Below are positions 3-59,355 of a stretch of DNA of 64,000 nucleotides, in pieces (positions within the stretch are counted from its first letter, which is position 1; the number at the start of each line of letters is the position of its first letter). Made by a program: the position numbers and the translations under genes. The stretch lies in NCBI GenBank assembly GCA_947646735.1, contig CANTFK010000017.1, positions 310,001 to 374,000 on the forward strand, in the 5' to 3' direction. The notes below the pieces were generated by a model. The model was not told the DNA's origin, ran no database searches, and saw only the letters and a list, made by a program, of their open reading frames with translations. Origin of the DNA: Peronospora farinosa (Eukaryota; Oomycota; Peronosporomycetes; Peronosporales; Peronosporaceae).

Positions 3-941
3 CTCGCGGCGATATCGGGAGAGGCATTCGTCGCGTCGCTGATGAGATCAGCGACCCCTGACGCGCAACGTCTCGCCATACATGAGTTTATGGCACGCGA
101 GCTCGCCGAATCCAACCGGCGAGGCTTAACTCCCTCGCGCCCTTCACGTAATGAGGCCGTGAAGATGTAAACCTCCTCCTACTCTGGAGAAGGTAAGGAC
201 CGGTTATCGCTGAACCGGTGGTTCCGAAAAGTTGATATCGCCATCGCCTCGAGACTTCTTGAGGCTCCACAGGCGAAGGTCAACTTTCTTCTTTCCCGCC
301 TCACCGGGAAGGCCAAGGAGTGGGCCCTTGGTAAACTCGTTGTGGACGAGCACGCATTTCCCACCTTGGATACCATCCAGGACGATCTCCGTCTTGCCTT
401 CGAGCCACCACAAGAGGAGAAACTGGTGCGATCAAGATTCCTGTCGATGCGATAGGGTAAAATGGCGATGCGCGACTACGTACAGATGGCTAGGCATCTG
501 GCGTCGTGTATTATCACGCACCCCATGGACATGTACACACAGGTGAATGTCTTTGTGGATGGTATGCGTGAGGGGCAGACCCGCTTATCGCTGGAGCGCG
601 CCGAGCCTGCCACATTGGAGGAGGCATTTGCCATCGCACTCCGTGAAGACTTTAGGGTCACAAAGGCCTATGCCAAACCCTCGGTCGTCAGCGTTCCCCG
701 GCCTTCTGGCCCAGAACCTATGGAGATCGACGTTATTGAGTCGTCGGGTGACCGGCGACGTGTCTTTCATCATAAAGGTGACGCTCGCACCGGGCGTCCA
801 ATGGTTTGCTTTCGTTGTCTCAAGCCAGGACATCGCGCGGCAGAGTGCCGTGCGCCAGCCCCATTATCGGTGCAAGTAGTGGACGCCCATCATGAGGGTG
901 CTGTACCGGCCGCACGTCCAAAAAACGGTCGGGACCAGTAG
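3..941 (+). pseudogene. gag: Ty3-A gag, nonsense-damaged
   Basis: This is the capsid/nucleocapsid protein of Ty3-A. It is open in one frame from base 3 apart from a TAA at 168-170 and a TAG at 453-455; there is no frameshift. The translation follows the intact Ty3-C gag closely, for example in the [18 protein letters not shown] and RDYVQ segments. A CCHC zinc knuckle (CFRCLKPGHRAAEC) lies around 808-850, near the C-terminus. The N-terminus is outside the window. The natural stop at 939-941 lies just downstream of a -1 frameshift signal. Confidence 0.88.
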
Positions 942-960
942 GTGCAGGGCGCCCTACTGG
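920..960 (+). promoter_or_regulatory. -1 programmed ribosomal frameshift signal, gag to pol (Ty3-A)
   Basis: The gag frame reads cca aaa aac, giving the canonical slippery heptamer A AAA AAC at 920-926. An 8-nt spacer follows, then a hairpin with arms 935-942 (ccagtagg) and 953-960 (cctactgg). The gag stop lies at 939-941. Pol is in the -1 frame and is open across the junction from 926. Ty3-C has the same heptamer, the same 8-nt spacer and the same stem, so the cassette is conserved. Frameshifting itself is inferred from this arrangement. Confidence 0.8.
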
Positions 961-3900
961 TTGGAACGGAGGTCCGGGTCCCCCGGTGGCAGCCCAACCT
1001 TCCAGTCCTCCTGCGCTACGCGCACGGTTAAATGCCACCACTACGAGTGGTGATTCACGTCTGATTATTGTCAGTTTACATGTCGCCGGCGTCCGGCGAC
1101 CTCTGCGAGCACTCCTGGACTCAGGAGCAACAAACAATTTCTTTCGTGAATCTTGTTTGTCGATGCTGCCTCCCAGCATTCAGGTCCGTGAGGGACCTGG
1201 CCAAGTCGTCGTCAAGTTGGCTGACGGGAAACCACACCGCGTATCGCGGCGCGAAGTGTCGTTGCCGTATACGTTTGATGGCTTTCGCAGTAATGATGAT
1301 TTCTTGGTGATCGCGATGAATTATGCATTCGATTGCATACTGGGCATGCCATGGTTGGCACGTTATAAGCCCCAGATCGACTGGTTAGCCAGATCAGTGA
1401 GACGTCGACGCAAGTTCGATGTCAGTGAAGTGTTTACCCATCTCTTGGTATCTCCAAGTGACTGGCCAAACGTCACAGTCGTGGATCGCGATTCCACGAC
1501 GTTGGCGGTGCACAGAGCGAGCGATGGCCCTCTCTGCACTGCTTGTGCTGTTCTTCGGGACACAAGTGACAGTGACTCCTCGCTACAGAGCGAAGAGGAC
1601 GACGAGGACGACGCGGTCGAACAGGGGTTCCCGCGCGTCATTAATGCGGTTGAACAGGGGTTCCCGCACGTGGATGCAGTGGTTGAACCGGGGTTCCCAT
1701 CTGCACCTATTGTGGTCGAGCAGGGGCTCCCACAAGGGCATTGTGGCGACGAGCAAGAGCTCGCCAGCGAGTGTGACGCGGACGGACAGGAGTCCTCACG
1801 CGAGAGCATGATGGTCAAACCGGGGTTCCCATCATCACCCACTGTGGTCGAACCGAGGTTCCCACATGGGCATATTGTGGTCGAGCAGGGGCTCCCACAC
1901 GAGTACAACGTGGACGGACAGGAGTCCCCACGCGAGAGCATGATGGTCGAACCGGGGTTCCCATCATCACCCACTGTGGTCGAACCGAGGTTCCCACATG
2001 GGCATACTGTGGTTGAGCAGGGGCTCCCACGCGGGTTTACGGCGGCCGAGCAGGAGCTCCCGCATCAAGTGTCGACGGTCGAGTTTGGGGTACTCCCGTC
2101 CAGTGTTTCCGGCATCTTGGATGACGACATCCAGTGCCTAGAGGGGGGTGATGGTTTATCACCTGACTGCGGTTCGCCAGCTTCGAGTAGTGACTCGAAG
2201 CACGATGGGGACAACAGCACCGAGAATTTAGCGTTGGAATGTGTCCACGCTATCGTGTACGTGGAAGGGAGTCCACAAAGGCGCCAATATATCGAGGTCG
2301 AGAGTCCTCCTCGTAATGCGTCTTCCATTACAAGTCTTCCAGGGCTTTCCTGGAAGCATTTCCTACGTGACCTTAAGGGAGGCACTGTGGAACAAGTGTG
2401 TCTAATCACCAACGAGGTGGTTACCGTGGCAAACGAGGAGCATATGGCGCGTCCTCAAAGCGCTGAGCCGAAGTCTGCGCGTGAAGAAAGGTTTGCATCA
2501 CAGTCATGGGAGGCCCTGCGAGAGTCTGGTAACCCCGTCTACGACATTGCTCGTGAGTATGCAGACGTGTTCCCGGACAAGATCCCGGCTGAACTTCCTT
2601 CGGACCGCGGTGTTCGGCACGAGATTGATCTCGTGCCAGGGTTGAAGTATTGTGTGACACGGCAGTGGCCGTTGCCTCGAGATCAAGTCGAAGCTATTGA
2701 CGCATTTTTTGGAGGCCGCCGCAAAGCGGGTCATGTGCGGGAGAGCATCTCACCACATTCGAGTCCAACCTTCTGCGTGAAGAAGGCTACGGGAGGCTGG
2801 CGGATAGTGCATGCGTTCAATAAGTTGAATGATGCCACTATTCCTGCGCAAACGCCAATTCCCAGGAAGGACATGGTGCTGAATTCCATGTCAGGTAGTG
2901 TCATCTTCAGTGCCATCGACTTGACCGATGGCTTTTACCAGATTTTGATGCGCCCGAGCGATATCCCACTCACCGCGGTGAGCACCCCGAGTGGCATGTT
3001 ATGGGAGTGGCTGGTAATGCCACAAGGGTTGAAGAACGCTCCGGCCACTTTCAATCGCATGGTGTCTCAAGTGTTGAGACCTCTTCGGAACTTTGCCCCA
3101 AGTTATTTTGACGATATCTTCGTCCACAGTCGCGCCGAGGGCAACCTCAACGATGTCCAAGCTCACCTTCAACACCTGAAGCAAGTGTTTCAAGTTATGC
3201 GGGACAACAAGTTGTACGAGAATCTCAAGAAGTGTGTCTTTTGTGCACCGGAGATTCAGGTGTTAGGTTGCTATGTGAGTAAATCGGGAGTTCGAGCTGA
3301 TCCAGAGAAGGTGTCGTCCATCTGTTCTTGGCCCACGCCCAAGAACCCTACGGAGTTGCGCCAGTGGCTCGGCTTGGCTAATTATTTGCACAAGTATACA
3401 AAGGATTATGCTGGTTCTATCCAGCCTTTGTCGTCACTCTTGAAGAAAGACGCCACGTGGTTGTGGCGTCCCGAGCACCAAGCAGTCTTCGAAGCAGTAA
3501 AGAAGAGCCTAGCGTCAGCGCCAGTCCTGGTCCTACCAGACGATTCCAAGCCGTTCCACGTGGTTTGCGACGCCAGTGATTTTGCAATCGGTTGTGCCCT
3601 CATGAAATTCGATGATGAGGGCCGTGAACGAGTCGTGAGTTATCAGTCGCGACAGATGAAGCCAGCTGAGAAGAACTATCCGGTTCACGACAAGGAGTTA
3701 TTAGCGATGCGCTATGCACTCATCAAGTTTCGCGTGCATCTGCTTGGTGAAAGTACGTTTGCTTTGTACACCGATCATGCATCGCTACGCACAGCGATGA
3801 AGAACCCACACCTGTACCAACGGATGGCACGATGGCTCTCATTCTTCTCTGAGTACAACTTCGTCGTGCATTACAAGCCAGGCAAGACCAATATTCTCGC

Positions 3901-6402
3901 TGACGCCTTGTCACGACGTCCCGACTACGATCCTCGGACTGCTCTGAGTCGCCAGGCTACTGATGACGAGGACGATGATGACCGATGTGCAATGTGTGTA
4001 TCGCTGAACTTAACTCGGGTTACACCCGAGCCGTGTTTATTTGATGAGATCGTCGCAGCGTACAAGGGTGACTCAGATTATGCAGACATTATCGAGTATC
4101 TGCGTGCTCTTAGCGATGCTGCACTGGGAGCATTATCCTGAACCAAGCGCGACCATATTCATCGATACAGTTTAGATGGCGATTTGCTTCTGTGTAGCAT
4201 CGACCAATTCGTTTCTCCTCGCACGGTGATTGCCAATGACATGGATTTGCGTGCAAGAATCATTCACGAGTATCACGATGCTCCTGCTGGCGGCCATTTA
4301 GGCCGCGAAAAGACTTTCGCGGCTGTGTCTCGAGACTTCTTCTGGCCCCACATGTATAAGTGGGTACGCAACTGGATCCGAACGTGCGAAATATGCCAGC
4401 GTGTGAAGCCATCTCCATCGTCACAGGCTCCCTTGCGATCGTTGCCAATTGCAGCAGAGGCCTGGAGATCAGTTTCGATGGACTTTATCTTCGGGCTTGC
4501 GCCCGATAGCCAAGCTCGAACGGGCATCTTGGTCTTTGTTGACAGATTCAGCAAGATGACACATCTCGTGCCTGTTCACGCTAAGGTCACCGCGGCAGAG
4601 ACCGCGGCGCACTTCATCGACGCGGTGTTCCGTCATCATGGCCTTCCAGAAAACATTGTTTCGGACCGTGATCCGCGATTTACGTCCGCATTTTGGACAT
4701 CACTTTTCGAGCTCCTCGGGACAAAACTGCTGATGTCGACGGCATCCCATCCGAAATCGGATGGGCAGACCGAGCGCGTGAACCGAGTCCTCGAAGATGT
4801 TCTTCGGAGTTATGCTACGTCATTTACAAGTTGGAGTGCATTTTTACCACTCGCTGAGTTCGCACTCAACAACGCCGTACACGCGTCAACAGGGTTGACG
4901 CCATTTTTTGTAAATTCGGCTCGTCACCCTCGTGTTCCTACTGTCCTGGCCGTGGGGCGACCCACAATACCTAGTGGCTCCACTCTGGGGGGGATAAAGG
5001 TGATAAACAAGGATCGAGTGCAGCTCACGGTATTTTGAGCGCGAATGCAGTAACACGATCCAAGGCAAAGACGGCCATTTTGACGCCATCAGACGTGGCG
5101 TCCCCATTAGCTCGATGGACTGCGCAGACATTGATTGACCCGTCTTCGGGTAAGCGTTCCCCTACTGCCAACTACGCGCCGATTGAGTCGGCGCGACCAA
5201 TTGATGACATGGCCGTGTCGGAATTTATACTCCAACGTCAAGCCATCACCAGGTTTGTACGCGACGCACTACAAACTGCTGTAGACCTACAGAAGGAGAA
5301 CGCTGACAAACATGGAAGAAAGAACATGAGCAAGTTTGAGAAAGGTGACCGTGTATTATTATCGACGGAAGGTTTAAGGGATTCTGCGGTCACTAATCTG
5401 GGCGCGAGTAAACTCGCGCCACGCTTCATCGGTCCATTCAAGGTTCTGAAGGCAATTGGCGACGCTTATACACTCGACGTCCCCTCTTCACTGCGACTCC
5501 ACCCGACATTCTATGTCGGGCGGCTGAAGGAATATCGTCCGGCTACGCTTCACGGTTTGGCTCCGACGCCGGCTTCAGGGGTTCGTAAGTCGAACGGCCT
5601 TCCCGTCGCGCTCGACGCGCCGATGACATGGGGCGGGGTCTCGATCCCGTCTGAACCTGACCAAGCATCTGGCGCTCCAGAATCCTTATCCGCTCGAGCA
5701 GTTCACGGTTCGACTGCCGGGTCTCACTCGAAGTCTTCTCCGCCTGGGCAGCACGTTCACTGGCAGCCTCAGCCTCCAGCCGAGCATCGGCAGCTATATT
5801 CACGGCCTGATCAACATCGTCCTGAGCAACCAGGACGCCAGCTCTACCACCGCGAGAGCCCTCCTCCGCTTGTTGATGCGGAGGGACAGGTGCGCTGGAT
5901 TGTAGACCGCATTGTGGGTCACGAGGACCCTCCACAACCATTACTGCAGTCGGCTCATGAGAAGCGTGCGGTTCCATCCGTGCGTAGGTACCGAGTACGT
6001 TGGCTTGGATTCCCTCCCGAGCAGGATACATGGGAACCACGTTCCTCGCTCCTTCGTGACGTTCCAGATGTGGTTCTGTCGTATGAAGCCACGAAGTCGG
6101 ACTATTCCAAGGCGGGCGAGCACGCGAACGCTCTCGTGACAAACGAGAGCGGTAAGGAGATCCACGTCGTCGGAAACGGGAACGATGACAAGAACGAGAA
6201 CGATGTCGCGAACGCAAACGATGTCGCGAACGAGATCGATGCCGTGATCGAGAATGTCGCGGTGAATACATATCACGATTGCGAGGCGAGAATCGCGCAA
6301 CTGGACGGGCAGGCGAACGTGTCGCTGCCCTGCGCTGATGATCCCGCGGAGATCGACTCCGCTGTCGCGAGTGGTGCCGCCAGCGGGGCGCACCACGAAT
6401 AA
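926..6402 (+). pseudogene. pol: Ty3-A pol: protease-RT-RNase H-integrase-chromodomain
   Basis: Domains in order: retropepsin with LDSGA (Asp near 1118); a long acidic linker with VEQGFP-type repeats; reverse transcriptase with YFDD at 3104-3115; RNase H beginning at [10 protein letters not shown] near 3554; integrase with an H2C2 finger (CEICQRVKP near 4390) and a D-D-E core (MDFIFG, SDRDPRF, GQTERVNR); and a chromodomain at roughly 5865-6090 (YRVRWLGF, DTWEP). The frame is interrupted by TGA at 4139-4141 and by a one-base loss in the G7 run near 4986-4992; eight Gs would join the frames. The open sense frame beyond the chromodomain (about 6095-6402) is Asn/Asp-rich and is best read as the shadow of the antisense RS region, not as real protein. 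Confidence 0.92.
1615..2085 (+). repeat. Protein-coding tandem repeats (VEQGFP type), Ty3-A linker
   Basis: Between protease and reverse transcriptase the pol frame repeats a motif of the form V-E-[QP]-[GR]-[FL]-P roughly a dozen times, spaced by 8-12 variable residues. At DNA level a longer unit around 1809-1905 recurs nearly unchanged at 1935-2030. Ty3-C carries the same kind of array, longer and with a different spacer. The repeats look like a disordered, length-variable spacer; no function can be read from the sequence. Confidence 0.85.
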
Positions 6403-7006
6403 CTGCGCTTCTCCGTTCGCCCAGACTTCGCTCATACTTCGCAATCCAACTTCGTTCGCGATCACTGAGTGGACACTCAGCGATGTGTCGTCGCCATTCG
6501 TCATGAGTTGGGCGTGGAGTCGAGTCACAAGATTGGCATCCTTCATTGACATGGACGAAGCAGAGACGGTCCTCATTCCAAGCTTCCTCACACACTCTTT
6601 CGCGTAGCGCGCCGATGGAGTGATCGGCGCGAAGTTCCTCTCGATTGGCGAGCCATAACTGGAAGCTGCTACCATCCTCGAGCATCCGATTCCAACGTTG
6701 GATGAAGGCGCACCAAGAACGTTGTAGAGCTTCATGCTCGATTCCATCAAGACCTTTCCCGCGCAGTTTTCGAAATCGGCGGAAGTATTCCCGCATCATG
6801 TCCAGTGAGTCCGGAGCGTGAGCTCCGGACAAGTCGTACAGCGACCAAGGTATGAGCTGCCGCGCCATGATGCTAGTTGATGCATTCCCGCTGATGTATC
6901 TTGGGCGTCCTGCTGGATTGGGTTCTGGGTCTCCGGACATTGCTTGTTCGTTTGTGGGCGAAGGGTTTTCGACAGTTGAGCACTCACGGTTGGTGAGTGC
7001 TGTCAT
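5543..7006 (-). CDS. Antisense ORF of Ty3-A, 487 aa, RS-rich with coiled coil (unknown function)
   Basis: The frame starts 14 bp inside the 3' LTR boundary and runs back over the end of pol. Residues 47-205 form a domain homologous to the Ty3-C antisense frame (shared LQRSWCAFI, YVH/FVH-x-x-EGC, ARYERSL/AKYERSL) and contain a candidate metal site C149, H152, C157, C160. Residues 213-296 are an Arg/Ser-rich tract like splicing-factor RS domains. Residues 395-448 are Ala/Glu/Arg-rich with coiled-coil character. Only residues after about 201 overlap sense pol, so the N-terminal homology cannot be a shadow of pol. It has no stop although gag and pol of this copy are broken. I recognise no known family. 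Transcription would have to start in or near the 3' LTR, reading inward. Function is unknown; nuclear localisation is suggested by the RS tract. Confidence 0.72.
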   Translation of the reverse strand: MTALTNRECSTVENPSPTNEQAMSGDPEPNPAGRPRYISGNASTSIMARQLIPWSLYDLSGAHAPDSLDMMREYFRRFRKLRGKGLDGIEHEALQRSWCAFIQRWNRMLEDGSSFQLWLANREELRADHSIGALRERVCEEAWNEDRLCFVHVNEGCQSCDSTPRPTHDEWRRHIAECPLSDRERSWIAKYERSLGERRSAVIRGAPRWRHHSRQRSRSPRDHQRRAATRSPARPVARFSPRNRDMYSPRHSRSRHRSRSRHRLRSRHRSRSCHRSRFRRRGSPYRSRLSRERSRARPPWNSPTSWLHTTEPHLERHEGARNVVPMYPAREGIQANVLGTYARMEPHASHEPTAVMVVEGPRDPQCGLQSSAPVPPHQQAEEGSRGGRAGVLVAQDDVDQAVNIAADARLEAEAASERAAQAEKTSSETRQSNRELLERIRILERQMLGQVQTGSRPRPMSSARRARREGRSTYEPLKPASEPNREA

Positions 7007-7019
7007 GAGAAGAGGGTGA

Positions 7020-7361
7020 TGTAATGGGCTACATTACACATATAGCATTAACACAAATAAACAATTACATATGTAGGCAGGTGCTGGGCCCGAATAGCGG
7101 GCACAGCGTGGTAATTTATTATTGGTTTATTATTGGGCCTAAAGTCCCCAATATGGACCAATGATAAATCAACCTGAAATTGTGTGGTTCCCGAAAGGCG
7201 GGAACACTGTCGTATTTATTACGACTAAAATCTTCATAATTAGTACGAATTAAAACTAAAATAAAAATCAGAGTTAAATTTACTTAATACCTAATACTTG
7301 GGCTTGAGTCTTCCTCAAGCGCACGTGTAAGCTAGTGACGGTACGTTCTAGCCCCGTTACA
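7020..7361 (+). repeat. Ty3-A 3' LTR
   Basis: This 342-bp LTR begins TGTAATGGGC and ends CCCCGTTACA, so it has the TG...CA ends of retroviral-type LTRs. In the same orientation it aligns with the Ty3-C LTR at both ends and in the AT-rich palindrome in the middle (TTTATTATTGG paired with CCAAT-ATAAAT). The five bases after it (accct) should be repeated upstream of the 5' LTR outside the window. Confidence 0.88.
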
Positions 7362-7609
7362 ACCCTGCTGTTCAGTCGCAGGCTGAGTCCGCTGCGCTGT
7401 AGAGGCAGGTGACAGATTTCCAGAGTGTAGTCTCGCGAATGACTTTGGATCTGCGCGATGTGAGGGCGAGGGACCGTCAGGGGTATGACCGCCTGAAGAC
7501 CCGTTTTGACATACACGAGCGGCTGGTGGTGAGAGACCCGCGTCAAAGGCGGAGTCCTCCTCGATCGCCGAGTTCTTTATCGCCTCACTCGTATACAAGT
7601 AGCCTTTAG
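7362..7609 (+). pseudogene. Antisense ORF remnant of Ty3-B (coiled-coil end)
   Basis: The plus strand matches the C-terminal part of the Ty3-F antisense frame, including SRxTxDLRDVRAR and RQGYDRLK, with a TAG in place of a Lys codon near 7402. Ty3-A has removed everything upstream. The fragment overlaps the end of Ty3-B pol on the opposite strand. Confidence 0.7.
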
Positions 7610-7640
7610 GCTTCCACGTCGCCTCATCGGTCGCGACGCT

Positions 7641-9203
7641 CTACTCACAGTCGACGTTAGCGTCGGTCTTGTTAGACTGATGCAGATATGTGATCTCCTC
7701 TGGATCACCATACCGTTTCAGACTCCCCACGTAAAATACGGGGTGCGTCTTCATATACGGTGGGAGATTGAGCCTATAATTTAGGTCTCCAACTTCTTCA
7801 ACCAATGTAAAGGGCCCAATGAATCGGGGCAATAGCTTAGTAGTATCACCAGGTAGTACATAAATTGCATGTTTAGGTAGGGTAGCAGTACTTAATAGCA
7901 CTTTGTCCCCCACACTAAAGTGTTCATTGTTTTTGTGACCATGCTGGTCTGCATATTGTTTTTGCTTGTCCTGTGCGCTTGCCATCGCGTCAAGGACTTT
8001 ACGTTTGATGGCTAATCGCTCATCCACAAAGAACTAAGCTTCGCTCACGCTTTAAGCATTTATCTTGCCAATGACGCCTCCAAGAGGTCGTTCATGGGTC
8101 GACGCTGTCGATAACACGATAGTGTCATCATCAAGGAGCACAGGCATTTCTTGCCGTGCCTCCTCATTGACACCTATAGGTGCCGTGACCACTGCTAAAT
8201 GAGCAGTGTAACTAGGCAATTGTGACCCTCTTTGGCATTCGCAGCGAGCGAAGTGAGGGTCCCTACCCCACTAAGACTCGGGCTGCGTACAAACGAGACT
8301 GGCGTTCGAGGATGACGCAGTCCGTTAATGTAAAACGGTGTTTCACCCGTACTGGCGTGAACACTGTTATTAATAGCGAACTCCACGAATGGAAATTGCT
8401 TGCTCCATTCTTTAGGAGTCGCTACTTTACGCAACACACCCGCCACGACTCGATTGGCCCGTTCTGTTTGGCCATCGGTCTGGGGATGATCAGTGGTTGA
8501 CATGTGGAGCTTGCTTCCCAGCAGCTCAAACACATGTCGCCAAAAACCCGACGTAAAACGCGGATCCCGCTCCGATACTATGGACTCGGGCATCCCGTGT
8601 AGTCGGTACACGTGATCCAGAAACAAGAGGGCAGCCTCTTTTCCTGAGATCTTGGTGCTACATGGTGCCAAATGCACCATCTTGCTCAGTCTGTCTTCAA
8701 AGACGACGAGCCCCGTCCTGCCTTTATGGTCAGGCGGTAAGCCAAACATGAAGTCCAAACTGACCGACCTTCCAACATTCAGTTGGAATCGGCAGTGGCT
8801 TCAGTGGCGCACTGTTTAAAGGTGCAGGCTTTATGCGCTGACACTCTTCGCAAGAGTGAATATAATTATCCACCCACCGATATAGGTGGGGCCACCAAAA
8901 TCTCTCTGACACTCGTAAGAATGTCTTTTCACGGCCCAGATGCCCACTAGATGGCGCATCATGGCACTCGTGAAGTATCATCAGCTTGAGATCTGTGTCA
9001 TGAGGGACATAGATTCTCAAGGGATCACAGGGTGACAGCTGATGCCATAACATGCCATCACTGTAACTAAAGCGATTTAGTTTCGCTTTGAGGTGCGAAG
9101 GAAGGGTAGCCTTTTGTCCACTAAAATGATCTAATATCAGGCGACAATGTTCTTCCTGACTGTAACACTCCTTTATATCGGAGGCCATTGAGCTCGTCAC
9201 ATG
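7641..9203 (-). pseudogene. pol: Ty3-B pol: integrase
   Basis: Minus-strand fragments give the integrase H2C2 finger (HECHDAPSSGHLGREK and CEECQRIKP, 8730-9200), the catalytic core (MDFMFGLPPDHKG, SERDPRF, GQTERANR, 8195-8758) and the C-terminal domain with the chromovirus GPF motif (RFIGPFTLVEE, 7641-8027). At least two frameshifts separate these pieces. The second core motif reads SERDPRF where Ty3-F has SDRDPRF. The catalytic Asp of that motif appears retained, but the gene is not translatable as one product. Confidence 0.88.
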
Positions 9204-11846
9204 GTAGCCTTCATGGCTTCCAATGTTGACGACTCAACTTGTGCTTTCGCACGAGACACACATTCCTGGTGTCTTGCCTCAAAGTCTGGTCTGCGCGATA
9301 ACGCGTCAGCCAATACATTTGACTTACCCGGCTTATATTCAACTTTGAAATTAAATTAAGAGAAGAATGTTAGCCATCTCGCCATTTTTGGCGAGAGGTG
9401 CGGTGAATTTATAGCGGTCCGCAGTGTAGCGTGATCCGTATAAGCCACAAAAGGTTCGGTGCCCAAGAGGTGCACCCGAAACTTCACAAGGACATACTTA
9501 ATTGAAAATATCTCCTTGTCATGCACAGGGTAATTCAGCTATGCTGCTTTCAAAAGCCGAGACTGATAAGAAACGACACGGTCAACGCCGTTGTCATCCT
9601 TCTGCATGAGCGCGCTGTTTATTGCAAAATTGCTTGCATCTCAGACGACGCTAAAAGGCTTATCCGCGTTTGGCAATGCCAAAACAGGTGCCTCAACAAG
9701 AGATTGCTTCACCGATGTGAACGAATCTTCGTGTTCCTTTGACCAAGTCCATTCTGTATCCTTTTTTCAAAAGGTCAGACAATGGCTTGGTCCGCTCCGC
9801 ATAATTCTTGATGTACTTATGCAAGTAACTAGCGAGCTCAGGGAAAAATTCTTCAAAGGTCGAGGGACTGGCCATTCCTTGATAGCCTTTACCTTTTCTG
9901 GGTATGCTCGTACACCGTGTGTACCTACGATGCAGCCCAGTACAGGTATCTCGGGGACATCTGCTACGTACTTTTGCAAGTTAAAGTACAATTGGGCGTC
10001 ACCCAGTGTCTGCAACACAGCTTCCAAATGACGCTTGTGCGACTCTATTGCTCTCAGACCGTCCTCCGCCCTACTATGCACGAATACATCGTCAAAGTAA
10101 TGGGGCGCGTAGGCACAGTGCTGACGCATCACGTGAGCCACCACTCGGTTGAATGTTGTTGGAGCATTTTTCAACCCTTGTGGCATCACAAGCCACTCCC
10201 ACAGAATACCGCTTGGGGTGCTTACTGTCGTTTTGGCTACATCAGTATCTCTCATAAGAGATTGATAGTAGCCATCCTTCAGATCCAACGCGGAAAAGAT
10301 AGTTGACTTTCCCATGGAGTTCAACAAGATATCTTTCCGAGGGATCGTCGTTTGAGCCGGAATGGTGGCCGTGTTCAGCTTGTTATAAGCATGAACCACG
10401 TGCCATCCACCCGTTGCTTTACGCACATAGAAAGTCGGGCTGTAGTGAGGCGACTTGCTCTCACGTACACGTCCCGACTTGGCTCGTTTGTAGAAGAACT
10501 CATCGATGTAATCTACTTGTTCCTTCGGCAGCGTTCATTGCCTGGTCACACAATACTTGGTGCCAGGCTCCAGATCAATCTCGTGCCTGATGCCCCTATC
10601 GGCCGGTAGGCGGCTCAGAACTTCTGCTGGAAACACATCACGGTGTTTCCACAGAACATCATAGAACGGGCTTTCCTTCAAGGCTTACCAGACTTGAGCA
10701 GCGAACCGTTTCTTTTTGTCGGTCTCCAAGACGCTTTTATCCGCTGTGGACGACGAGCAATAGTCCACCACATTCTTTTCTGGAACTGGCGCGACTATCT
10801 CGTGGATCTTTCCTTCCTTTAGTTCGGACATAAACAGATCCCACGTCATCTCCGAGAGATTTACTATCTCCTCGACAGATGCCAAGACAAGTTGGACCAC
10901 CTCAACTTAGGATGCCTCCGGCATTCGGTCTTCGGCGGCCTCGAACAACTCGTTCGTAGGTCCGTACTCTTGGACGGAGACTGATCCAAGGGTCTCTCGC
11001 TTCGACGTGACCTTGATCATCTTTATACGTCTGGTGCTCGTTGTTCCGAGTCACCACGACCTTTGACCTGGAAGAAGGTGTCGTTGCCTATTCAGCCAAC
11101 GCACTCCTTCCAACCGCACCAGGCTCATGGCTCTGTTCTGGTTCTTGTGGCGCTTGACTTCCTGTCAGCCCACCATCAACTGCCACAGGCTCTCGTCTAT
11201 GTGCAGGACTATTGGACGCATGACTACCTGTCATCGCCCCATTCACTACACCAGTCTTTTCGACCTGGATAGGAATATGTGTCGCCTGGCTTTCTGCCAG
11301 GGCACTTCCAACTACACTAATCCTTTCGATCTGGGTAGTTCCTGGTGTCGATTGACATACCGTCATCGCACCCTCGACTGTGTTGGACACAGCATTAATC
11401 GCATAGGCCTCTCTCAGGAGCACATCCTTTCCGGTGTCTTGCGTAGAGTTAGTGACTGTACGTGTACTCCGGTATATCCATGGTTGGTGTATAGCCAACC
11501 AAGGCATGCCTTGGATGAGATCATACGGACTCTCCATACCTATCACTGAGAACTTCTCTTTACAAAAGAAGTCACTAAAGCTGAAGGCGAGCTCAGCTTG
11601 AACTCCCTCCGATTTAATGAGCGCGCCGTTCGCTAAACGAGCGATCGCCTCTTCTCGCTTGCCATACTGGCAAAGCGACTCATAACTCGCCGGTCTCTTT
11701 TTCAGAGCCGCGAGTTTCACAAAGTTTTGTGATGCACCCGACTCCACGAGAAGAGTCATCACTTGGTCATAGCCTCGTACTCGAGCGATATAGACCAAAA
11801 GGGTTGAGATCCGACCTTTCGGAACCTCAGAAAATATGCTACCCAT
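9204..11846 (-). pseudogene. pol: Ty3-B pol: protease, RT and RNase H, degraded
   Basis: Protease is at 11088-11846 and reads LLVESGASQNF, with Glu where the catalytic Asp should be, followed by the LIQGMPWL motif and a linker with short Gly-Ser-His-Pro repeats. RT lies at about 9767-10600 with HYFDDVFVHSR. RNase H at 9204-9760 survives only as fragments in shifting frames. The reading frame breaks many times. Confidence 0.85.
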
Positions 11847-14115: not shown

Positions 14116-14434
14116 TGTAACGGGCTAAGGACCCGTTACCGTCTTACACTAAAAGGGCGTTGAGGAAGCGCTCTTAATTAACTCGTAAATATAACTCTGT
14201 TTTATTTTTGTTTTAGTTTTAATTCGCAGTAAGTGCGAATATGTTCCCTAGCTCATGGGAACCACTCAAATATGGAAGTCAATTTATTATTGGCTAATTA
14301 TTGGGTCTGGCACCCCAATAATAACCAATAATAAATTGACGCGCAGTATCCGCTAATCGGATGCTGCCCTATGCCTACTTATGTAATTATGTATTAATCC
14401 TATAACTACTTATGTAATAGGTAGACCCATTACA
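14116..14434 (-). repeat. Ty3-C 3' LTR
   Basis: 319 bp. On the plus strand it starts TGTAACGGGCTAAGG and ends GACCCATTACA. It contains a long AT-rich palindrome at roughly 14275-14342 (GTCAATTTATTATTGG paired with CCAATAATAAATTGAC). Confidence 0.93.
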
Positions 14435-14546
14435 TCATCCCTCTCTTTAAGTTGCGCTTACCTCAACGTAAGCGCGAATCGCAGAAAGTTTCTTCTCGAC
14501 CAACGGCGTAACTCCGAACCTGCTCAGTTAGACTTAACTGAGCAGC

Positions 14547-15949
14547 ATGGACACTAGGCGCCCACGAAACAATGTCTCTGACAGCCAGAACTGGTAACAC
14601 CAAGCGACAATCCGTAGAGAGCAGGCGCCGCAGGTCATGGATGGGGACTTGAAACCGTGGCGCTTGTATGGTCTTGAAGGTGCAGTCGAACCCGAGCCAC
14701 TGGAGGTCATGAAGGACCTTTTCACGCGATACCGTACAGTGAGAGGCAAGGCAACGAACAACGCATATACCGACGATGCTTTGCAGAGGTCTTGGTGTGC
14801 CTTCATCAGGCGCTGGAACGCGAGCCGACGTGAAGGAACGTCCTTCACGTCCTGGTTAGACGGTCGCGAGGGAACGCGTGATAGACACGCTATTGGCGAC
14901 CTGCGTCGGCGCATCTGTCGTATGACTTGTGACGAGTATCACCTATGTTACGTCCACATTCGTGAGGGATGTCCAACGTGCAACGTGGGCAGGTCGCGAC
15001 CGGTCCGGCATGAATGGGACGACTTAGTGTGTGCGCGAGGCATGCCCGACCATATTCGTCCATGGATTGCCCGTTATGAGAGAAGCCTTTCGGAGCTCCA
15101 GGTGTCCGAGCTACGGCGAGTGAGAACGCGTCCTTACGATCGCCGACGGCATTCACGTAGCCGAGATCGTCAACCGTATCATCCATATGCTTCCGAGCCT
15201 CGTAATAGGTCTCGGTCTCGGAGTCGCTCGGGAGGTCGTCGCGGTTTCATTGCTCGCGAGCATTACGGCTCGCGAGATCGGGGGTGGAACCGTCAGCGTC
15301 GGTCGCGATCACCGTCTTTCTACGGGACTCGTAGTCCTCGACCACGTCCGGAACATCTTGGGACAGCGTACTCGATGGCTCCCATGTATCGTTCGCCGGG
15401 GAATATCCCAACCAGCGAACCCTGTAATGTTTCTCGACACGCTTCTTCATGGGCGCCGAGTTATCACTCGGCGCCTGGGACTTGTGATCCTCGTGATCGA
15501 CATTAGGTCGACAATCCAGCGTCGCGCACCCGATGCATCGACTAATGGAGGAGGAGCATCACGACGGAAGGCCTCTGGCGATGAGCGCCAATTCTCGCAA
15601 TCGGGCGCCTGTACCGTCAAATGACGAGCTGCGCCTACTCCGCGCTGAAGCTGAGGAATCGAAGAATGCCCTACTTGATGCTCGCGAGATGGCTGAGAGA
15701 GCTCAAGATCGTGCGGTCGATGCGACTGAGGCTGCTGAGAGGACTCGACGTGAGCAGCTGGTACTAGTTGAGCGCCTACGTCAACTCGAGACGACTGCGT
15801 TTGGAGGGCCCCATCAGATCGAGCCTGCTCGCGGTCGGGCAGGACTTGGACCCAGTCGTCTACGTCGTCGTCAAGGGATGTCGGATTTCGACCCGGCACA
15901 GAAGAGCGGGGAAGATTCGAAGGGAGACCCGCCGGCAGGTAAGCCTTGA
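14547..15949 (+). pseudogene. Antisense ORF of Ty3-C (homologue of the Ty3-A antisense protein)
   Basis: Starting from the ATG at 14547, the frame has one early TAA (near 14595) and is then open from the ATG at 14637 to 15506. A frameshift around 15480-15530 moves the rest into 15533-15949. The part from 14637 is homologous to residues 47-205 of the Ty3-A protein (DDALQRSWCAFIRRWN, CYVHIREGCPTC, WIARYERSLS), followed by an RS-rich tract (RNRSRSRSRS) and a coiled coil (EAEESKNALLDAREMAERAQ). The indel that breaks it also breaks the overlapping sense chromodomain frame. The conserved domain lies outside sense pol. Confidence 0.72.
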
Positions 15950-18900: not shown

Positions 18901-20676
18901 CGGGCGATATCGTATACAGGGTTGCCCGAAGCACGAAGAGCATCCCAAGACTGTGCCGCGAAGCGTTCTTCGCGCGCTGATTTAGGCTCGGCGCTCTTCG
19001 GGCGAGCCTCCAGAACCTCTGCACTGGCTGCTTCGGTGGCTGAAACGATGTACACTTGCTCGATGTCGCCGACCTTGAGGTCATGAAGGAAGTCTTTCCA
19101 TGTAAGGTCTGGCAGAGATGTGATATCTGCAGCAGTGCACGGTGGACTGTATACCTCAATGTAGCGGCCACGATGTGGGGATCCCTCCACATATTCAAGC
19201 GCGCATACGGATTCCGTCACTACGGATTAAAATGCATCAGCATCTTGACGTGAATTTCGTCGTCTCGGTGATCGGCGTGCTCTTTTCTTGCGTTTTCTCT
19301 TGCGTCTCGAGCCCCTGCTCGAGACTGGCACGTCGCTATCACAAGAGGATGATGTACCCCCCCCCCTCTAGACGTGGGAGCTCTGTCTCCACCACGTCGG
19401 TCTCATGCGGATCCGTAGTCCGCCCATTCTCGTCAATCAAAAGCGGGAGCTCGTCTTCTAACGCTTCACTTGTTTGCGGGAGCCCCTGCTCGACCGCCTC
19501 GATATTTATCGGGAGCCTCTGCTCGTCCGATGTACTTGTACGCGGGAGCCCCTGCTCGACCGCCTCGAAATTGATCGGGAGCCTCTGCTCGTCCGATGTG
19601 CTTGTATGCGGGAGCCCCTGCTCGACCGCCTCGATATTTATCGGGAGCCTCTGCTCGTCCGATGTACTTGTACGCGGGAGCCCCTGCTCGACCGCCTCTA
19701 AAATGATCGGGAGCCTCTGCTCGTCCGATGTGCTTGTATGCGGGAGCCCCTGCTCAACCGCCGCGAAATTGATCGGGAGCCGCTGCTCGTCCGATGTGCT
19801 TGTATGCGGGAGCCCCTGCTCGACCGCCTCGTTTAGAATCGGGAACCCCTGTTCGACCGATGTCTGTGTGTGCGGGAACCGCTGGTTAACCGCCTCGTTG
19901 TGAATCGGGAACCCCTGTTCGACCGATGTCTGTGTGTGCGGGAACCGCTGTTCGACCGCCTCGTTGTGCATCGGGAACCCCTGTTCGACCGATGTCTGTG
20001 TATGCGGGAACCGCTGTTCGACCGCTTCGTTCTGTGGCTCCGTCAGTGTAACGGAACATACTGCGCACAGAGAGTCATCGCTCTCTCTGTGTTGACTACG
20101 AGTCGTGGCGAGTTCGTTCACGACCCTGACGTGAGGCCAATCGGATGGAGCGACCAACAAATGAGTAAACACTTCACTGACGTCATAACCGCTTCGTCGT
20201 TTGACGGACCGAGATAGCCAATCTATCTTCGGCTGATACCGTGACAGCCACGGTTTCCCAAGTATGCAATCAAATGCATAGTTCATCTCGTACACCAAAA
20301 ATTCGTCGTTGCTCTGGAAACCGTCGAAAGTGTACGGCAAAACCACTGTTTTACGCGGGACACGTTTTGATTGTCCATCGGCAAGTTTGACAACGATGTC
20401 ACCTGGACCTTCTCGAACCGTGACAGTCGACGGGAGAAGGGACAAACAGGATGCACGAAAGAAGTTGTTGGAAGCGCCAGATTCCAACAACGCTCGAAGT
20501 GGTCGCTTCACTCCAGCGACGATGAGACTGATAATAATCAGTCTCGAATCATCGCGCATGGTGGTGGCATTGAAGTGGGTATGAATCACTTTGGGGCTAG
20601 GAGCCCGAGCTGCCCCCTGAGTACTCGGGGCTCCATTTCAGCCAGTAGGGCGCCCCACGCCTACTGGAACCGCTCG
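15247..20676 (-). pseudogene. pol: Ty3-C pol: protease to chromodomain, frameshifted
   Basis: Domains on the minus strand: protease (19339-20589) with LLESGASNNFF, Glu replacing the catalytic Asp; repeat-rich linker; RT (17595-18677) with [11 protein letters not shown]; RNase H; integrase (16142-17590) with CETCQRVKP, MDRDPRF and GQTERVNR; and chromodomain (15247-15450, YRVRWLGY, DTWEP). Breaks: a G10 run near 19357-19366; TAG at 18741-18743; an extra T in a T-run near 17610 (seven where six keep frame); a one-base loss near 16225; and an indel near 15500. RNase H ends LAVALSRR where Ty3-A has LADALSRR, so an acidic residue is lost. Confidence 0.9.
19460..20035 (-). repeat. 66-bp protein-coding tandem repeats, Ty3-C linker
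   Basis: Five to six near-identical 66-bp units encode EAVEQGLPHTSTSDEQRLPI-type repeats between protease and RT. They are followed toward the protease by shorter VEQRFPHTQTS units. Neighbouring units differ at only a few positions, indicating recent expansion or unequal exchange. It corresponds in position to the Ty3-A array at 1615-2085. Confidence 0.9.
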
Positions 20677-21727: not shown

Positions 21728-22047
21728 TGTAACGGGCTAAGGATCCGTTACCGTCTTACACTAAAAGGGCCTTGAGGAAGTGCTCTAAATGAACTCGTAA
21801 ATATAACTCTGTTTTATTTTTGTTTTAGATTTAATTCGCAGTAAGTGCGAATATGTTCCCTAGCTCATGGGAACCACTCAAATATGGAAGTCAATTTATT
21901 ATTGGCTAATTATTGGGTCTGGCACCCCAATAATAAACCAATAATAAATTGACGCGCAGTATCCGCTAATCGGATACTGCCCTATGCCTACTTATGTAAT
22001 TATGTATTAATCCTATAACTACTTATGTAATAGGTAGACCCATTACA
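21728..22047 (-). repeat. Ty3-C 5' LTR
   Basis: 320 bp, TG...CA ends, about 97% identical by eye to 14116-14434, differing by a handful of substitutions and one extra A in the central AT-rich palindrome. The cacgt duplication follows immediately. Confidence 0.93.
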
Positions 22048-48888: not shown

Positions 48889-49512
48889 TGTAGACGGGCG
48901 CTTTATAGACGGGCACTTCTTCGAAGCTGCCTTGTAACAGGGCATCTAGTTACACGTAAACATTAAGTAATATACTTAATGTTTGGTTTTAAAGTACATA
49001 TGATTACTTTTGACCTGTCACTTGGGTGCGATACACAAATGTGATCCACCCTCGTGAATGTGATATCCATTGATGGATTCACATGAGAAGGGATGACGCT
49101 AATTGAAGCTAGGCATCGCGACGTCTCAGAAAGACGTCAGTTGCGATCTTAAATCTACATTTAAGCTCATGCGACAGGATACGCTCTAAAGAGTCGCGTA
49201 TCCGATCTATATATATATATATATAGCCAATCAGTAGTTAAGTATATATTTAGTTATGATTCATTAAATATAGCTCAGTCTTGAATTTTCTAAACACCAA
49301 AGCACCACGCACGAGAAGCTGAAAAAGCTTCTGCGTGACGCCGGTGACTTCTTGTCTTAGAAATTCGTTGCACTCTCGCTAAAGCGAGAGGTAACTGGTG
49401 GTACGACTGCGTAAGCAGTCGACCAACCACACAACCACCCTCGCACGCGAAGTAAGACGGTCTAACCGCTTCCTCGCTTGTGCTAAAGGTGTGTGCTAAG
49501 TAGCACGAGGCA
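48889..49512. repeat. Rearranged Ty3-B/F family LTR: short forward head plus inverted body
   Basis: Bases 48889-48932 match the first ~40 bp of the Ty3-B/F LTR in plus orientation (tgtagacgggcgc ... gctgcct). Bases 48933-49512 are the rest of such an LTR in reverse (starting tgtaacaggg, ending gaggca) and lack exactly that first part. The junctions are tgcct and its complement aggca. Together with the adjacent forward Ty3-F LTR this forms a long head-to-head palindrome. Confidence 0.75.
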
Positions 49513-49683
49513 TGTAGAAGGGCACTTATTACGAAGTTGCCTCGTACTGCTAGCACACAAGCGAGGAAGCGGTTAGACCGTCTTACCTTCGCGTGCGAGG
49601 GTGGTTGTGTGGTTGGTCGACTGCTTACGCAGTTGTACCACCAGTTGCCTCTCGCTTTAGCGAGAGTGCAACGAGCTTCTAAG

Positions 49684-50143
49684 TGTAATGGGACACCCTC
49701 CGACTATACTGATTACAGTATAGTCTACTTTCACTGATTACAGTGAAAGCAGGTGCCTCAATTACCTCTCTTACACAAGAGGCAGAGGAAGCTTTACTAT
49801 TAAACGATACGCTTAGAAGTAGAGGAAAAGAAAACTGTATTTAATATAGTTAACTATCTAATAGAACTAATCTGTTATAACCTATGTTAACTATATTAAA
49901 CTACAACTATGTATGTTGACAACTTGCTCTCCACTCATTGCGCGCGTTCATCGGTCATTGGTCAGCGCGTTGGTTGATATGATGGCCCATATCAACCAAT
50001 GAGATGGCATCTCCAACTTCAAGAAGATCTAGGAACAATATTATAAGAAAAGGTAATATTGTCAAATATTATTATTTATAATAATAATTTTATTGACACT
50101 TCATATAAGTGTCAATATTATGTAACGGGCTAACCCCGTTACA
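49684..50143 (-). repeat. Ty3-E 3' LTR
   Basis: 460 bp, TGTAATGGGACACC at the start and CCCCGTTACA at the end. It contains stem-loops such as ctttcactgattacagtgaaag-type pairs and an inverted pair around ttggttgatatg/catatcaaccaa. Confidence 0.93.
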
Positions 50144-50241
50144 TCACCCCCCCCCTCAACCAAGAGTCACATTAGTGACTGTTTGGTGACTATGGGAAAG
50201 GAGCACTTGTTGGGTTTTCTTTTATTCAACAATTTTACGCT

Positions 50242-51919
50242 ATGACAAAGTCAATGCGCGTCCCTGCTAAGGCAGCTAAGAGCTCGGCTGCACGCCTGTG
50301 CAGCCGAGCTCTTAGCTGCGGGCTTCACAGCCTCAGCCAGCAGACACTTATGTGTCTGCTGGAAGTCAACATCAGCCTGCAACGCCTGTTGCAGGTTCAC
50401 GTAGCGCTTAGCCACGTGAAGATGTTGACCCAGAGTTAGTCGTTGACTTCTCTGGTGAGTCGGATGACGCATCCGGCTCAAAGTCACCTGTTCCACCCTT
50501 GGGCTCTTCCCGGGGTGATAACTCGTCGTCGAATGTTACGAAGAGGGATCGTTGTACATTGAGTGAATCAATGTACCGTGAAATGTTCGGGTAGTCTGAT
50601 GAATCAGACGACTCGCCAAACGAGTCGAAGGATAGTGACTCGGGTGGGGACCGTAAGGGTGATGTCAGTGCTTCTACTGACATCAATAATCATAGAGTCG
50701 GTACTTCTGTTGACACCACGCAGGAGGCTTTGACCGCAACGTATTGCGCCTTGCTCCTGATCGCAAGCATCTAAGCATCTGCTTGATCGTTGGTCTGGAA
50801 AGACCAACGAACGGTTCCCCATACCGTTGTTTAATGCGTCAAAGCTTCATGGCCTTGACGCCAGTGCGAAGAACTTTCGCACTGAGAACGATTATTACAT
50901 CGATATGTTCCTTGAACATCGATGGTATAACCCACACAAGAAGCGTGAGGCTGACGCGTTCCTCCAATCTTGGAACGCGTTTATCACCAACGTTTTAAAT
51001 GCTGGGAAAGAGGATTGGTTTCAAAGACTTTTTGCTAGCCGCAATAAGTTTGAGAAACGAAGTACGTCCGGTGCATGCTATCGTTTGCACCGGTTATCTA
51101 GAGAGGCAGGCCTTTTATGCCTCTCTTGAGGCGACCCATTCCCGGGGTGCCTGAGCACCTCGTCAAGAGCGCCTAAGGAGGCGTACCTCCTTACTGAGCC
51201 CTGGTGGAGAGCTCGCATCTCTTCATAAATGCGTGAAGGGATTGCTTTGCAATCCCTTTACGAGCGCGCTGGGCGCTCGTTTTCCGATGGTGTATTCACC
51301 ATCGGGTGCCCCTTGTCGTACTGTTCGACAAGGCCGGGAACGTCGGCCATCAGTTGGGCCCGAGGTTCCCAGCTATCCGCCGAAGGCGGATAGCCACGCC
51401 ACCGGACGAGATAATTCGTCCGACGTCCCTTCACCTTGCGGTGCTTTAGTAAGCGTTCCACGAGGAAGCGCTTCCCACCATGGGAGTCCACCAGCGGATG
51501 CGGTGGTGGAGGAAAAACCCTGTCCAATTCTTTCATCGGACTTGGCTGCTGAGTTAGACGGGTTTGCCCGTGTAACTTGTGAGCTCCGTTGTGATGTTAT
51601 TCACTAACGGGATAAGCGTCGTTGCTTAGAGGACATTGTGAGACAGCTTGGGTTTGACCATGAGAAGTCTCGGGCAAACAATGTTGTCGCACTATAGGAG
51701 AATGAACGGCAGCTTCATATTTTAAGTAACGAGCTGGCGACAGCTCGTCAGGAGATCGTCCAGTATCATGGGACGATCTCATCTCTACACGACCAGGTAT
51801 CGAATCTGGTTCGTGACAACAAGAATCTGAAAGGGATTCTTGAGAGTAATGGCTATCTTCGTCGTTCGAAGAAGCCGCGTACTGAACGTACGGACGAAGA
51901 CGTCCCACGTAAAACGTAG
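50242..51919 (+). pseudogene. Antisense ORF of Ty3-E, broken
   Basis: It begins 98 bp inside the LTR with ATG (50242) and continues through several frames. A DPELVVDFSGES segment near 50428 matches DPSLIVDYNES of the Ty3-F antisense frame. ADAFLQSWNAFI near 50955 matches LQRSWCAFI of Ty3-A and Ty3-C. A C-terminal coiled coil runs from about 51608 to the stop at 51917-51919 (ELATARQEIVQYHG, LHDQVSNLVRDNKNLK), with one TAG inside. It overlaps the sense chromodomain (51258-51536). The Ty3-E frame thus links the A/C and F versions. Confidence 0.62.
50272..51394. repeat. Dense array of perfect hairpins in Ty3-E
   Basis: More than twenty perfect inverted repeats with stems of at least 7 bp and loops of 2-12 nt lie in 1.1 kb. 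Examples, arm/arm: 50272-50292/50299-50319 (21 bp), 50337-50347/50352-50362 (11), 50554-50562/50568-50576 (9), 50788-50796/50801-50809 (9), 50862-50870/50876-50884 (9), 51236-51245/51249-51258 (10), 51284-51292/51297-51305 (9), 51372-51381/51385-51394 (10). The pattern continues through the rest of the element. Confidence 0.85.
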
Positions 51920-54900: not shown

Positions 54901-55204
54901 CCCAGGATTGCGATGTATATCGCTCAATCCGAGTCTTCTCATCAAGGACACTTTCGTCCATTGATGAGCTGCTGAGAACCCGTTCGTTCTCGGCAAAAAC
55001 TGTTGCTGACCGAATGTCAGTCATGTACTCGTCTTCTGCGACGAGCACACAAATCTGCTTGACTTTGCCACTACGCAGATCACGCAAGAACCTTTTAGGT
55101 TCTAGCTTAGGAAACTGAGTTATCTCCGAAGTTAACTTCGGAGGCGCGATCAGATCAAGCGTATAAGCGCCTACGTTTGATCCGTCATTAACCAAGACGT
55201 TCAA
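51258..55204 (-). pseudogene. pol: Ty3-E pol: RT, RNase H, integrase, chromodomain, frameshifted
   Basis: Minus-strand pieces: pre-RT and RT start (54671-55204), RT with SYFDDVFVHSQ (54187-54639), RNase H (53389-53903, [27 protein letters not shown]), integrase finger (52984-53355, CEACQRVKP), integrase core (52399-52968, MDFVFGFPKD, SDRDPRF, GQTERANR), integrase C-terminus (51597-52034, KYIGPFRVLRR) and chromodomain (51258-51536, YLVRWRGYPPSADSWEP). Active-site residues of RT and integrase are present, but several frameshifts separate the parts. Confidence 0.9.
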
Positions 55205-55227
55205 CGTCTCGGTTACTTCTTGGGGAC

Positions 55228-56958: not shown

Positions 56959-56970
56959 GAAGTGCTACCA
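56958..56970 (-). other. Primer binding site, Ty3-E
   Basis: TGGTAGCACTTCG on the minus strand, two bases inside the 5' LTR, identical to Ty3-C over 13 bp. Unrelated LTR families using the same primer site support its identification. Confidence 0.75.
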
Positions 56971-56972
56971 GG

Positions 56973-57852: not shown

Positions 57853-57957
57853 CCATCCCCCGTTTTAGAACGATTTTACATTTTGTAAAACATCGCCTAG
57901 GAGACAGAGAGACTTGCGAGCCGTTGTAAACGCGCCGCTTTAGTCTGCTCAATTCTC

Positions 57958-59355
57958 ATGCCACCGAAACGTGGTAAGGCTGATGGGTCGCCTGCAAAGG
58001 CACCCATGCAGTCCAGCACTAAGCGCACGCGCCGCGATTTATCGCAGCCGTCGCCAAGTGCTACAGGCATTGAGACGAATCTTCCGTCTCGCTATAATGT
58101 GGATGAAGATCCATCTCTCATTGTAGACTACAATGAGAGTACGCCATTGTCATCACCTCAAAGTGGCGATGAGCATAGTGCATTGATGGGACATATGTCC
58201 CCATCATTTGAGGCACCCGTCCTTGAGGGAGCATCGATGCCTCCTGAAAGCGAAGGTAAGGCCTCGTCGCCTGCGCCTACGAGCGCAGCGACTAAGACTA
58301 AACGCGCTGCTTCGAAAGGAGTAGTCGCGACTCAATCATATGTGACTCCTCATGCTGATGTCTTGACAATCCATGATGGAGAGTCAGACTCAGGTGAGTG
58401 TGAGCTTAAAGCTCCACCAAGTAAACCTTTGGCCTCACTAGCCCGCCGTCGCGAGGACGGCTACGTGAGTGATGGCTTGCCACCAATGCCACCTCCATCT
58501 GAGTGGATGAACTCGGATGGGTCTAGTGCAGCGCTTTTGCAGCGTGCAAATATTGACGCTCATAAGTTTTATAGCGTTTTTCCTTTGTGGAAAAAGCAAG
58601 GCAAAGTACTTGGTCGTGCTTATTCAATTCCAGTCGTTCTGCGTTCTATCGAAACAGCCGACGAATATGAAGCTGAACTTCGGCGCCGTGTTACCTTGCA
58701 TTTAGATGCAACTAAACAACGGTAGAAGCGAATCAGCTTCGCCATGAAGCGTGCGCATGAAATTTTGGGTGGTAAGCGACCCCCAATTAATTCTCGCCAC
58801 GCTTCTTCTGCTAGTCCATCCGGACCTAGCAGAAAGACGACAGCTGGTGCTGCTTCACATAAGCAGCCAACAGCCCAGGCAAGTCGACGCGCAAAGCGTC
58901 AACAGGCTCCCAGGAGTCGAAGCTCGTTGTGTAACCCTTCCACTGGACCAGGATTTGGAGCTTTCGCTTCACAAACCGGTGGTCCAACAGCCTTCCAACA
59001 AGAAAGCGCGTATTCCCTTCCGTGTCCACCAACACAGGTGGCTCTCGATAGGAGTGGCGATTACGCCCACCTACTCGCGGCTGCCCACCCTGCTTCTGTT
59101 CAGTCGCAGGCTGAGTCTGCTGCGCTGAAGAGGCAGGTGAAAGATCTCAAGAGTCAAGTCTCGCGACTGACTGTGGATCTGCGCGATGTGAGGGCGAGGT
59201 ATCGTCAGGGGTATGACCGCCTGAAGATCACGTTTGGACATCTTAGAGCGACTGGTGATGAGAGAACCGCGTCAAGCGCGGAGTCCTCCTCGATCACCGA
59301 GTCCTCTATCGTCTCGTTCGTATGCGGGGAGCCTCTCGGCTTCCTCGTCGCCTGA
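57958..59355 (+). pseudogene. Antisense ORF of Ty3-F, one amber stop, about 465 codons
   Basis: The frame starts 106 bp inside the LTR at MPPKRGKADGS and runs in one frame to 59355, with a single TAG at 58723-58725. The first part is Ser/Pro-rich and acidic (DPSLIVDYNES). The middle (VFPLWKKQGKVLGRAY) is unrecognised. The end is a coiled coil (ALKRQVKDLKSQVSRLTVDL). Length matches the 487-aa Ty3-A frame. It overlaps the sense chromodomain at 58826-59035 on the other strand. Ty3-B retains its C-terminal part at 7362-7609. Confidence 0.65.

Follow-up and report, generated by a model that had tools for sequence, protein, structure and literature searches.

Several Ty3 retrotransposons carry an extra gene on the strand opposite gag-pol. 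In plants, such antisense open reading frames (ORFs) form the class aORF-3R, with Grande gene23, RIRE2, Retand ORF4/TRP28, and PvRetro13 as examples; the Grande product is nuclear, and a promoter lies upstream of gene23 (PMC7264820). Antisense accessory genes of this sort, described in both plant and fungal Ty3 elements, have no known role. Here we analyzed a 64,000-nucleotide stretch of the oomycete Peronospora farinosa (the window; contig C5:310001-374000), which contains Ty3 copies designated A, B, C, E, and F, and searched the genome it belongs to (46.85 Mb, 274 contigs). The original prediction held that all five copies carry a protein frame antisense to pol, and pointed to extra antisense ORFs in some plant Ty3 lineages. 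Such ORFs are indeed described for Grande, RIRE2, and Retand, and also for Boty of Botrytis. Among the window copies, A, C, E, and F bear the frame, whereas B is a truncated F-family fragment without the frame start.

The frame of copy A has the aORF-3R layout, being antisense to gag-pol and lying between pol and the 3' long terminal repeat (LTR), and it overlaps the end of pol besides. It is open and occurs in many copies; its protein sequence is conserved across species, and purifying selection acts on a domain that pol does not overlap. The antisense gene is almost certainly real. It is likely an accessory gene of the chromodomain Ty3 elements of Peronosporaceae, set opposite gag-pol between, and partly over, the pol end and the 3' LTR.

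An intact frame opposite pol in copy A

896..6402, plus strand: copy A pol in three frames (Pfam hits, frames), with protease, reverse transcriptase, and RNase H at 896-4141, integrase at 4142-5038, and SH3 domain plus chromodomain at 4975-6402
5543..7006, minus strand: copy A antisense ORF, open from its ATG, 487 amino acids, intact
7007..7019, plus strand: purine-rich tract (polypurine tract, PPT) between the copy A antisense ATG and the LTR, read from the sequence
7020..7361, plus strand: copy A 3' LTR, 342 bp, from which an antisense transcript might originate

Copy A is a chromovirus, with a chromodomain (PF00385, E=1.1e-7) at about 5899-6087, after SH3_Tf2-1. Its 5' LTR, at contig C5:309524-309865, is 99.7% identical to the 3' LTR over 342 bp, and homology among A copies stops at about 7361. 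With about one base different between the LTRs and pol in three frames, copy A is young but looks broken in pol. The antisense ATG, at 7006, is 13 nt short of the 3' LTR, with the purine-rich tract between. From there the frame runs antisense over the chromodomain, as had been predicted, and stops just beyond the SH3 domain. Because the last pol frame ends at 6402, antisense codons 1-201 are pol-free; the remaining C-terminal 286 codons overlap the pol tail and chromodomain.

Stops in the pol-free stretch were counted for a single open copy of each family, picked for openness (the window copy for A, L040 for C, L075 for E, and L070 for F). In all four, the antisense frame has no stops and is the sole stop-free frame of six. 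In the other five frames, stops number 2-13 (A), 2-9 (C), 8-39 (E), and 9-31 (F). Given zero stops against 2-39, the open antisense frame is not due to chance.

Purifying selection on the pol-free domain

6404..6868, minus strand: conserved domain, residues 47-201, pol-free (pN/pS, homologues, helical model)

Codon alignments were made of 30 A and 30 C copies, taken as the top scorers among the 89 and 146 matches listed and thus no random sample. The ratio of nonsynonymous to synonymous polymorphism (pN/pS) was counted on shared variants, those present in at least two copies, and separately on singletons, which are mostly post-insertion decay. Shared-variant pN/pS is 0.45 in A codons 47-201 (11 nonsynonymous, 10 synonymous) and 0.30 in C codons 1-150. 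Control frames lie mostly at 1.2-2.4 (1.35, 2.41, 1.93, and 1.37 for A; 1.22, 1.74, 2.02, and 1.78 for C), and by this comparison the shared variants indicate purifying selection on the domain. Singletons in C reach 0.80 versus 0.30 for shared variants (Fisher P=0.004). In the same A copies, integrase scores 0.26, with its two control frames at 1.36 and 2.01, and the SH3 part scores 0.25. Two outcomes that the original prediction had named as counting against it, a dN/dS near 1 in young copies and absence of the frame from closely related intact elements, were not seen. Omega by the Nei-Gojobori method (NG86) is 0.19-0.38 in the A domain (six chosen pairs) and 0.14-0.18 in the C domain (five chosen pairs), all pairs including the window copy and each having few substitutions behind it. 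Intact copies also have the frame, as do other species. For F, omega is 0.51 and 0.18; the E and F samples are small (L070, L071, L072-L075, and the window copies).

Several results weigh against a selected protein, or narrow the part of the frame to which selection applies. The mirror frame (rev+1) is low too, at 0.46 in A and 0.50 in C, as expected since its third positions coincide with those of the antisense frame. Singleton pN/pS in A, 0.55, hardly differs from the shared value, with small counts, and omega in E is 0.62 and 0.72. Codons 1-46 of A (1.12), its arginine-serine-rich (RS-rich) part at codons 202-320 (1.11), and its coil part at codons 321-487 (1.33) show no constraint, nor do C codons 151-288 (1.00); beyond the domain, evolution of the frame is close to neutral. 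In addition, a stop at antisense codon 21 is common to 8 of the 30 A copies (L011, L017, L019, L020, L021, L027, L031, and L034), on account of which the working start codon of A may be Met23 or the conserved Met48.

Homologues and family kinship

Database matches comprise 23 homologues of the A protein at 33-75% identity, from nine Phytophthora species, two Peronospora species, and sources without a species name; none is functionally named. For the domain itself there are 14 homologues at 48-75% identity. With a P. infestans homologue as query, the present genome gives 115 matches at 46-57% identity. The F-type protein is 95% identical to a Peronospora effusa protein and 93-97% identical to one of P. 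farinosa. Pfam profiles (E up to 1; A, C, and F pieces plus the 23 homologue rows) returned no recognised relative and no functional name.

The A protein can be aligned over its full length with that of an intact C copy, with 43-45% protein identity in the domain, which bears out the claim that the pol-free residues 1-200 of A match C at the protein level. Mismatches between A and C in the domain number 73/62/113 over the three codon positions (P=1.6e-4), and 66/59/103 against the intact C copy (P=6.4e-4). A domain common to A, C, and E had also been proposed. The A-C half of this proposal stands, but the A-E link is weak, and one domain common to all three is at best tentative. The motif DPxLxVDYxES of E and F is real, as predicted; a kinship of E and F to A is putative. 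Two domain matches to the P. infestans protein, at G000:C252:819332-819892 and C272:265753-266319, fall within open frames of 431 and 451 amino acids and lie outside the listed A matches. They suggest further subfamilies.

Predicted protein architecture

6527..6592, minus strand: putative zinc-binding Cys4 (C139-x9-C149-x7-C157-x2-C160), conservation counted in 23 rows
6047..6403, minus strand: residues 202-320, RS-rich, opposite the part of pol that follows the chromodomain and reaching the chromodomain edge
5666..5827, minus strand: coiled-coil-like region, residues 394-447 (Pfam Alanine_zipper under the cut-off; conserved RQSNRELL block)

Three features are common to the A and C proteins: a helical domain with four cysteines, a stretch rich in RS, and a tail resembling a coil. 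The structure model of the domain consists of helices, with a mean predicted local distance difference test score (pLDDT) of 81 and a predicted template modelling score (pTM) of 0.56. In 23 aligned rows, from which P0013 and P0016 were left out as seemingly frame-shifted, the cysteines are retained in 23/23 (C139), 23/23 (C149), 18/23 (C157), and 22/23 (C160) cases. H152 occurs in 11/23, so the histidine of the predicted C-H-C-C spacing is not conserved, and that spacing holds in some members only. The four cysteines would be the zinc ligands.

The RS-rich stretch of A has 19 RS/SR dipeptides in 60 amino acids, compared with at most 11 in 500 shuffles. C has 14 per 60 amino acids, again exceeding all 500 shuffles, as do 13 of the 23 homologues. 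An RS arm as a general feature is opposed by the other 10 homologues, which fail to beat all shuffles, and by the E and F proteins, which also fail: F has 9 dipeptides per 60 amino acids (reached in 6/500 shuffles) and E has 4 (378/500). The prediction that all the frames end in a coiled coil draws on weak Pfam hits and inspection, and we retain it as a tentative description.

Other copies and spread through the genome

14547..15949, plus strand: copy C antisense frame, broken in the window copy, first ATG at 14547, 112 nt from the LTR
14116..14434, minus strand: copy C 3' LTR (partner 21728-22047, 97.5%)
50192..51919, plus strand: copy E antisense frame, decayed in the window copy, ATG at 50192, 48 nt from the LTR, domain piece 50797-51126
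57958..59355, plus strand: copy F antisense frame, interrupted in the window copy by one stop and, further on, by shifts, ATG at 57958, 105 nt from the LTR
7362..7609, plus strand: copy B, reduced to the final portion of an F-type antisense frame

The C, E, and F frames have the same layout as that of A. E and F have chromo-like tails as judged by eye. The region of copy B, 7365-10567, matches 59093-62284 of F at 92%. Numbers of genomic matches below refer to matches listed, fragments included and with some loci giving two rows, and are not shares of all elements. The A frame has at least 89 matches, 21 of the 89 listed spanning at least 470 of 487 residues without a stop (hand count). For C, the query piece 14637-15503 (289 amino acids) gives at least 146; by hand count, 11 of the 146 listed span at least 288 residues stop-free, and intact C relatives measure 471 residues from stop to stop. 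A 110-amino-acid piece of E has at least 152 matches, with open frames reaching 657 amino acids and an open relative of at least 592 residues stop to stop. The first 255 amino acids of F have at least 150, of which 53 of the 150 listed span all 255 stop-free (hand count); L070 and L071 are open F relatives, and outside the window F is open for 500 residues stop to stop.

Direct repeats with a 33-bp period occur in gag-pol of both the A element (1680-2075) and the C element (19312-19962), each overlain by a long opposite-strand frame (1363-1941, minus, and 19232-19903, plus). E and F are adjacent within 48933-62784, where an E-type LTR flanks F on both sides (93%) and an inverted F-LTR piece lies at 48933-49345; this arrangement is nested or recombined.

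A candidate two-way promoter in the LTR

7121..7162, no strand assigned: dyad of four CCAAT boxes (two each way) in the copy A LTR, candidate bidirectional promoter core
14289-14329: copy C CCAAT dyad, in the copy C 3' LTR
6979..7001, no strand assigned: inverted repeat with 9-bp arms beside the PPT of copy A (mononucleotide-shuffle P 0.0005)

As the antisense start abuts the 3' LTR, a leftward transcript must start in the LTR or outside it. The A and C LTRs contain a symmetric array, ATTGG-ATTGG-CCAAT-CCAAT, in 23/30 A copies and 23/30 C copies; when either LTR was shuffled 20,000 times by mononucleotides, the array never arose. Counted from the LTR end on the antisense side, the boxes are at 106-146 nt. 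Promoters of P. infestans have CCAAT equally in both orientations, at a median of 83 nt upstream of the initiator (INR) and for the most part no more than 150 nt from the start codon (PMC3599244). With these features, the dyad is a possible two-way promoter. Counting against this reading, the E and F LTRs are without the four-box array, and the oomycete INR (YCAYTYY) was not found in A, C, E, or F anywhere from the LTR to the ATG. On balance, an antisense transcript driven by the LTR is probable.

All four antisense-bearing families have inverted repeats next to the PPT, starting 18-22 nt in from the LTR edge. Those of C (14452-14477, P 0.004), E (50162-50183, P 0.023), and F (57874-57890, P 0.035) are at the same offset as that of A but differ in sequence. 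Two of the 30 A copies are changed in both repeat arms with pairing preserved. The repeat could serve in PPT priming, antisense initiation, or protein binding.

Proposed function and alternatives

We propose leftward transcription from the 3' LTR under the two-way CCAAT promoter; the transcript would begin in U3 and run across the PPT. Its translation product would be a nuclear protein that combines a helical Cys4 domain with an RS-rich arm and a coiled coil. This protein may regulate the element, post-transcriptionally or transcriptionally, by acting on the RNA or chromatin of the element itself, like retroviral accessory proteins. The RS arm, and the parallel with Grande gene23 (PMC7264820), suggest nuclear action. 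That the product is a nuclear RNA or chromatin regulator is possible, with a chance somewhat below even. In its most far-reaching form, this proposal makes the gene old and ancestral to Peronosporaceae chromoviruses (A, C, E, and perhaps F). It would encode a Cys4-RS-coiled-coil nuclear RNA regulator under a symmetric CCAAT two-way LTR promoter, giving two convergent coding units per element and a Rev/Rex- or HBZ-like circuit evolved independently in stramenopile retroelements; we regard this version as doubtful.

A shadow frame, formed as a by-product of pol codon usage and yielding no product, would account for the C-terminal 286 codons, which overlap pol without excess antisense constraint and in which A and C mismatches are roughly even over codon positions. 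The first 201 codons are pol-free, however, and residues 47-201 are both conserved between species and under purifying selection. For the N-terminal part this account is largely refuted, and as an explanation of the frame it is very nearly out of the question; the original prediction was right to treat the frame as a protein-coding gene and not a mere shadow of pol. Alternatively, the antisense RNA itself could be the working product, with convergent LTR transcription yielding double-stranded RNA and small RNAs that limit the element, the ORF being secondary. Sense and antisense small RNAs do occur along P. infestans Gypsy elements (PMC3522703), and the CCAAT dyad suggests two-way LTR transcription. 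Such an RNA leaves unexplained both the synonymous-biased substitution in the pol-free domain and the amino acid conservation between species, and we consider it improbable as the whole explanation, though an RNA role and a protein role could be compatible.

If the frame were instead a captured host gene and passive passenger, its antisense orientation would let it keep its own promoter. Transduced genes sit in one or few copies (PMC7264820), unlike this frame, for which two related families give at least 89 (A) and at least 146 (C) matches and which also has homologues elsewhere among oomycete species. With no functionally named or Pfam-recognised relative among the homologues and profile matches either, capture is highly unlikely. 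A protein product might also be no nuclear regulator but a structural or chaperone cofactor of the particle, either gag-like or a partner of integrase. The matches at E up to 1 included no family of the gag, capsid, or zinc-knuckle kind, and the RS-rich arm would point to the nucleus; we think a cofactor unlikely. The accessory-gene reading can be followed up readily, as many near-identical open copies and sequenced Phytophthora relatives allow transcription and translation to be checked in RNA and peptide data that already exist. On the same reading, some oomycete "hypothetical proteins" would be element genes.

Comparison with known antisense genes

In the open-access literature, searched mostly below full-text level, we found no description of this antisense family in oomycetes. 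The Boty-like Ty3 elements of Botrytis cinerea combine, in the same way, gag-pol with a chromodomain and an extra antisense gene, brtn (PMC4227169, PMC8365987, PMC7264820). They differ in their fungal host, and the likeness is one of layout. Plant Retand elements are not chromoviruses, have 2.9-6.6 kb between pol and the 3' LTR, and in most cases carry a TRP28 domain (PMC11963269). In contrast, the oomycete frame extends over the pol end, has its A-copy start 13 nt away from the LTR, and gives no TRP28 match. By sequence profiles only, TRP28/Transposase_28 (PF04195) was absent at E up to 1 from the A, C, and F pieces and the 23 rows, and at E up to 0.1 from intact E and F.

The HBZ protein of human T-cell leukaemia virus type 1 (HTLV-1) is a basic leucine zipper (bZIP) protein with spliced forms. 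Its gene too is antisense at the 3' end, and the HTLV antisense promoter lies in the 3' LTR (PMC7264820). The oomycete frame differs in that no homology is seen, and no bZIP family was among the profile matches, again at the level of sequence profiles, of the A, C, and F pieces, the 23 rows, or intact E and F. The predicted HBZ-like layout holds as a 3'-end antisense gene; an HBZ-like way of working is at most hypothetical. SR proteins resemble the product in the RS-rich arm of A, C, and 13/23 homologues; they differ from it in that profile scans of the A, C, and F pieces and the 23 rows gave no match to an RNA recognition motif (RRM), and no amino acid constraint shows in the RS part of A. 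That an oomycete lineage has a protein family of its own, lying partly over the chromodomain and under selection, suggests that antisense accessory genes have served as a solution more than once and are not peculiar to plants. By layout, the gene is of a known antisense kind, with a predicted protein distinct from the TRP28 and bZIP types and partly overlapping pol.
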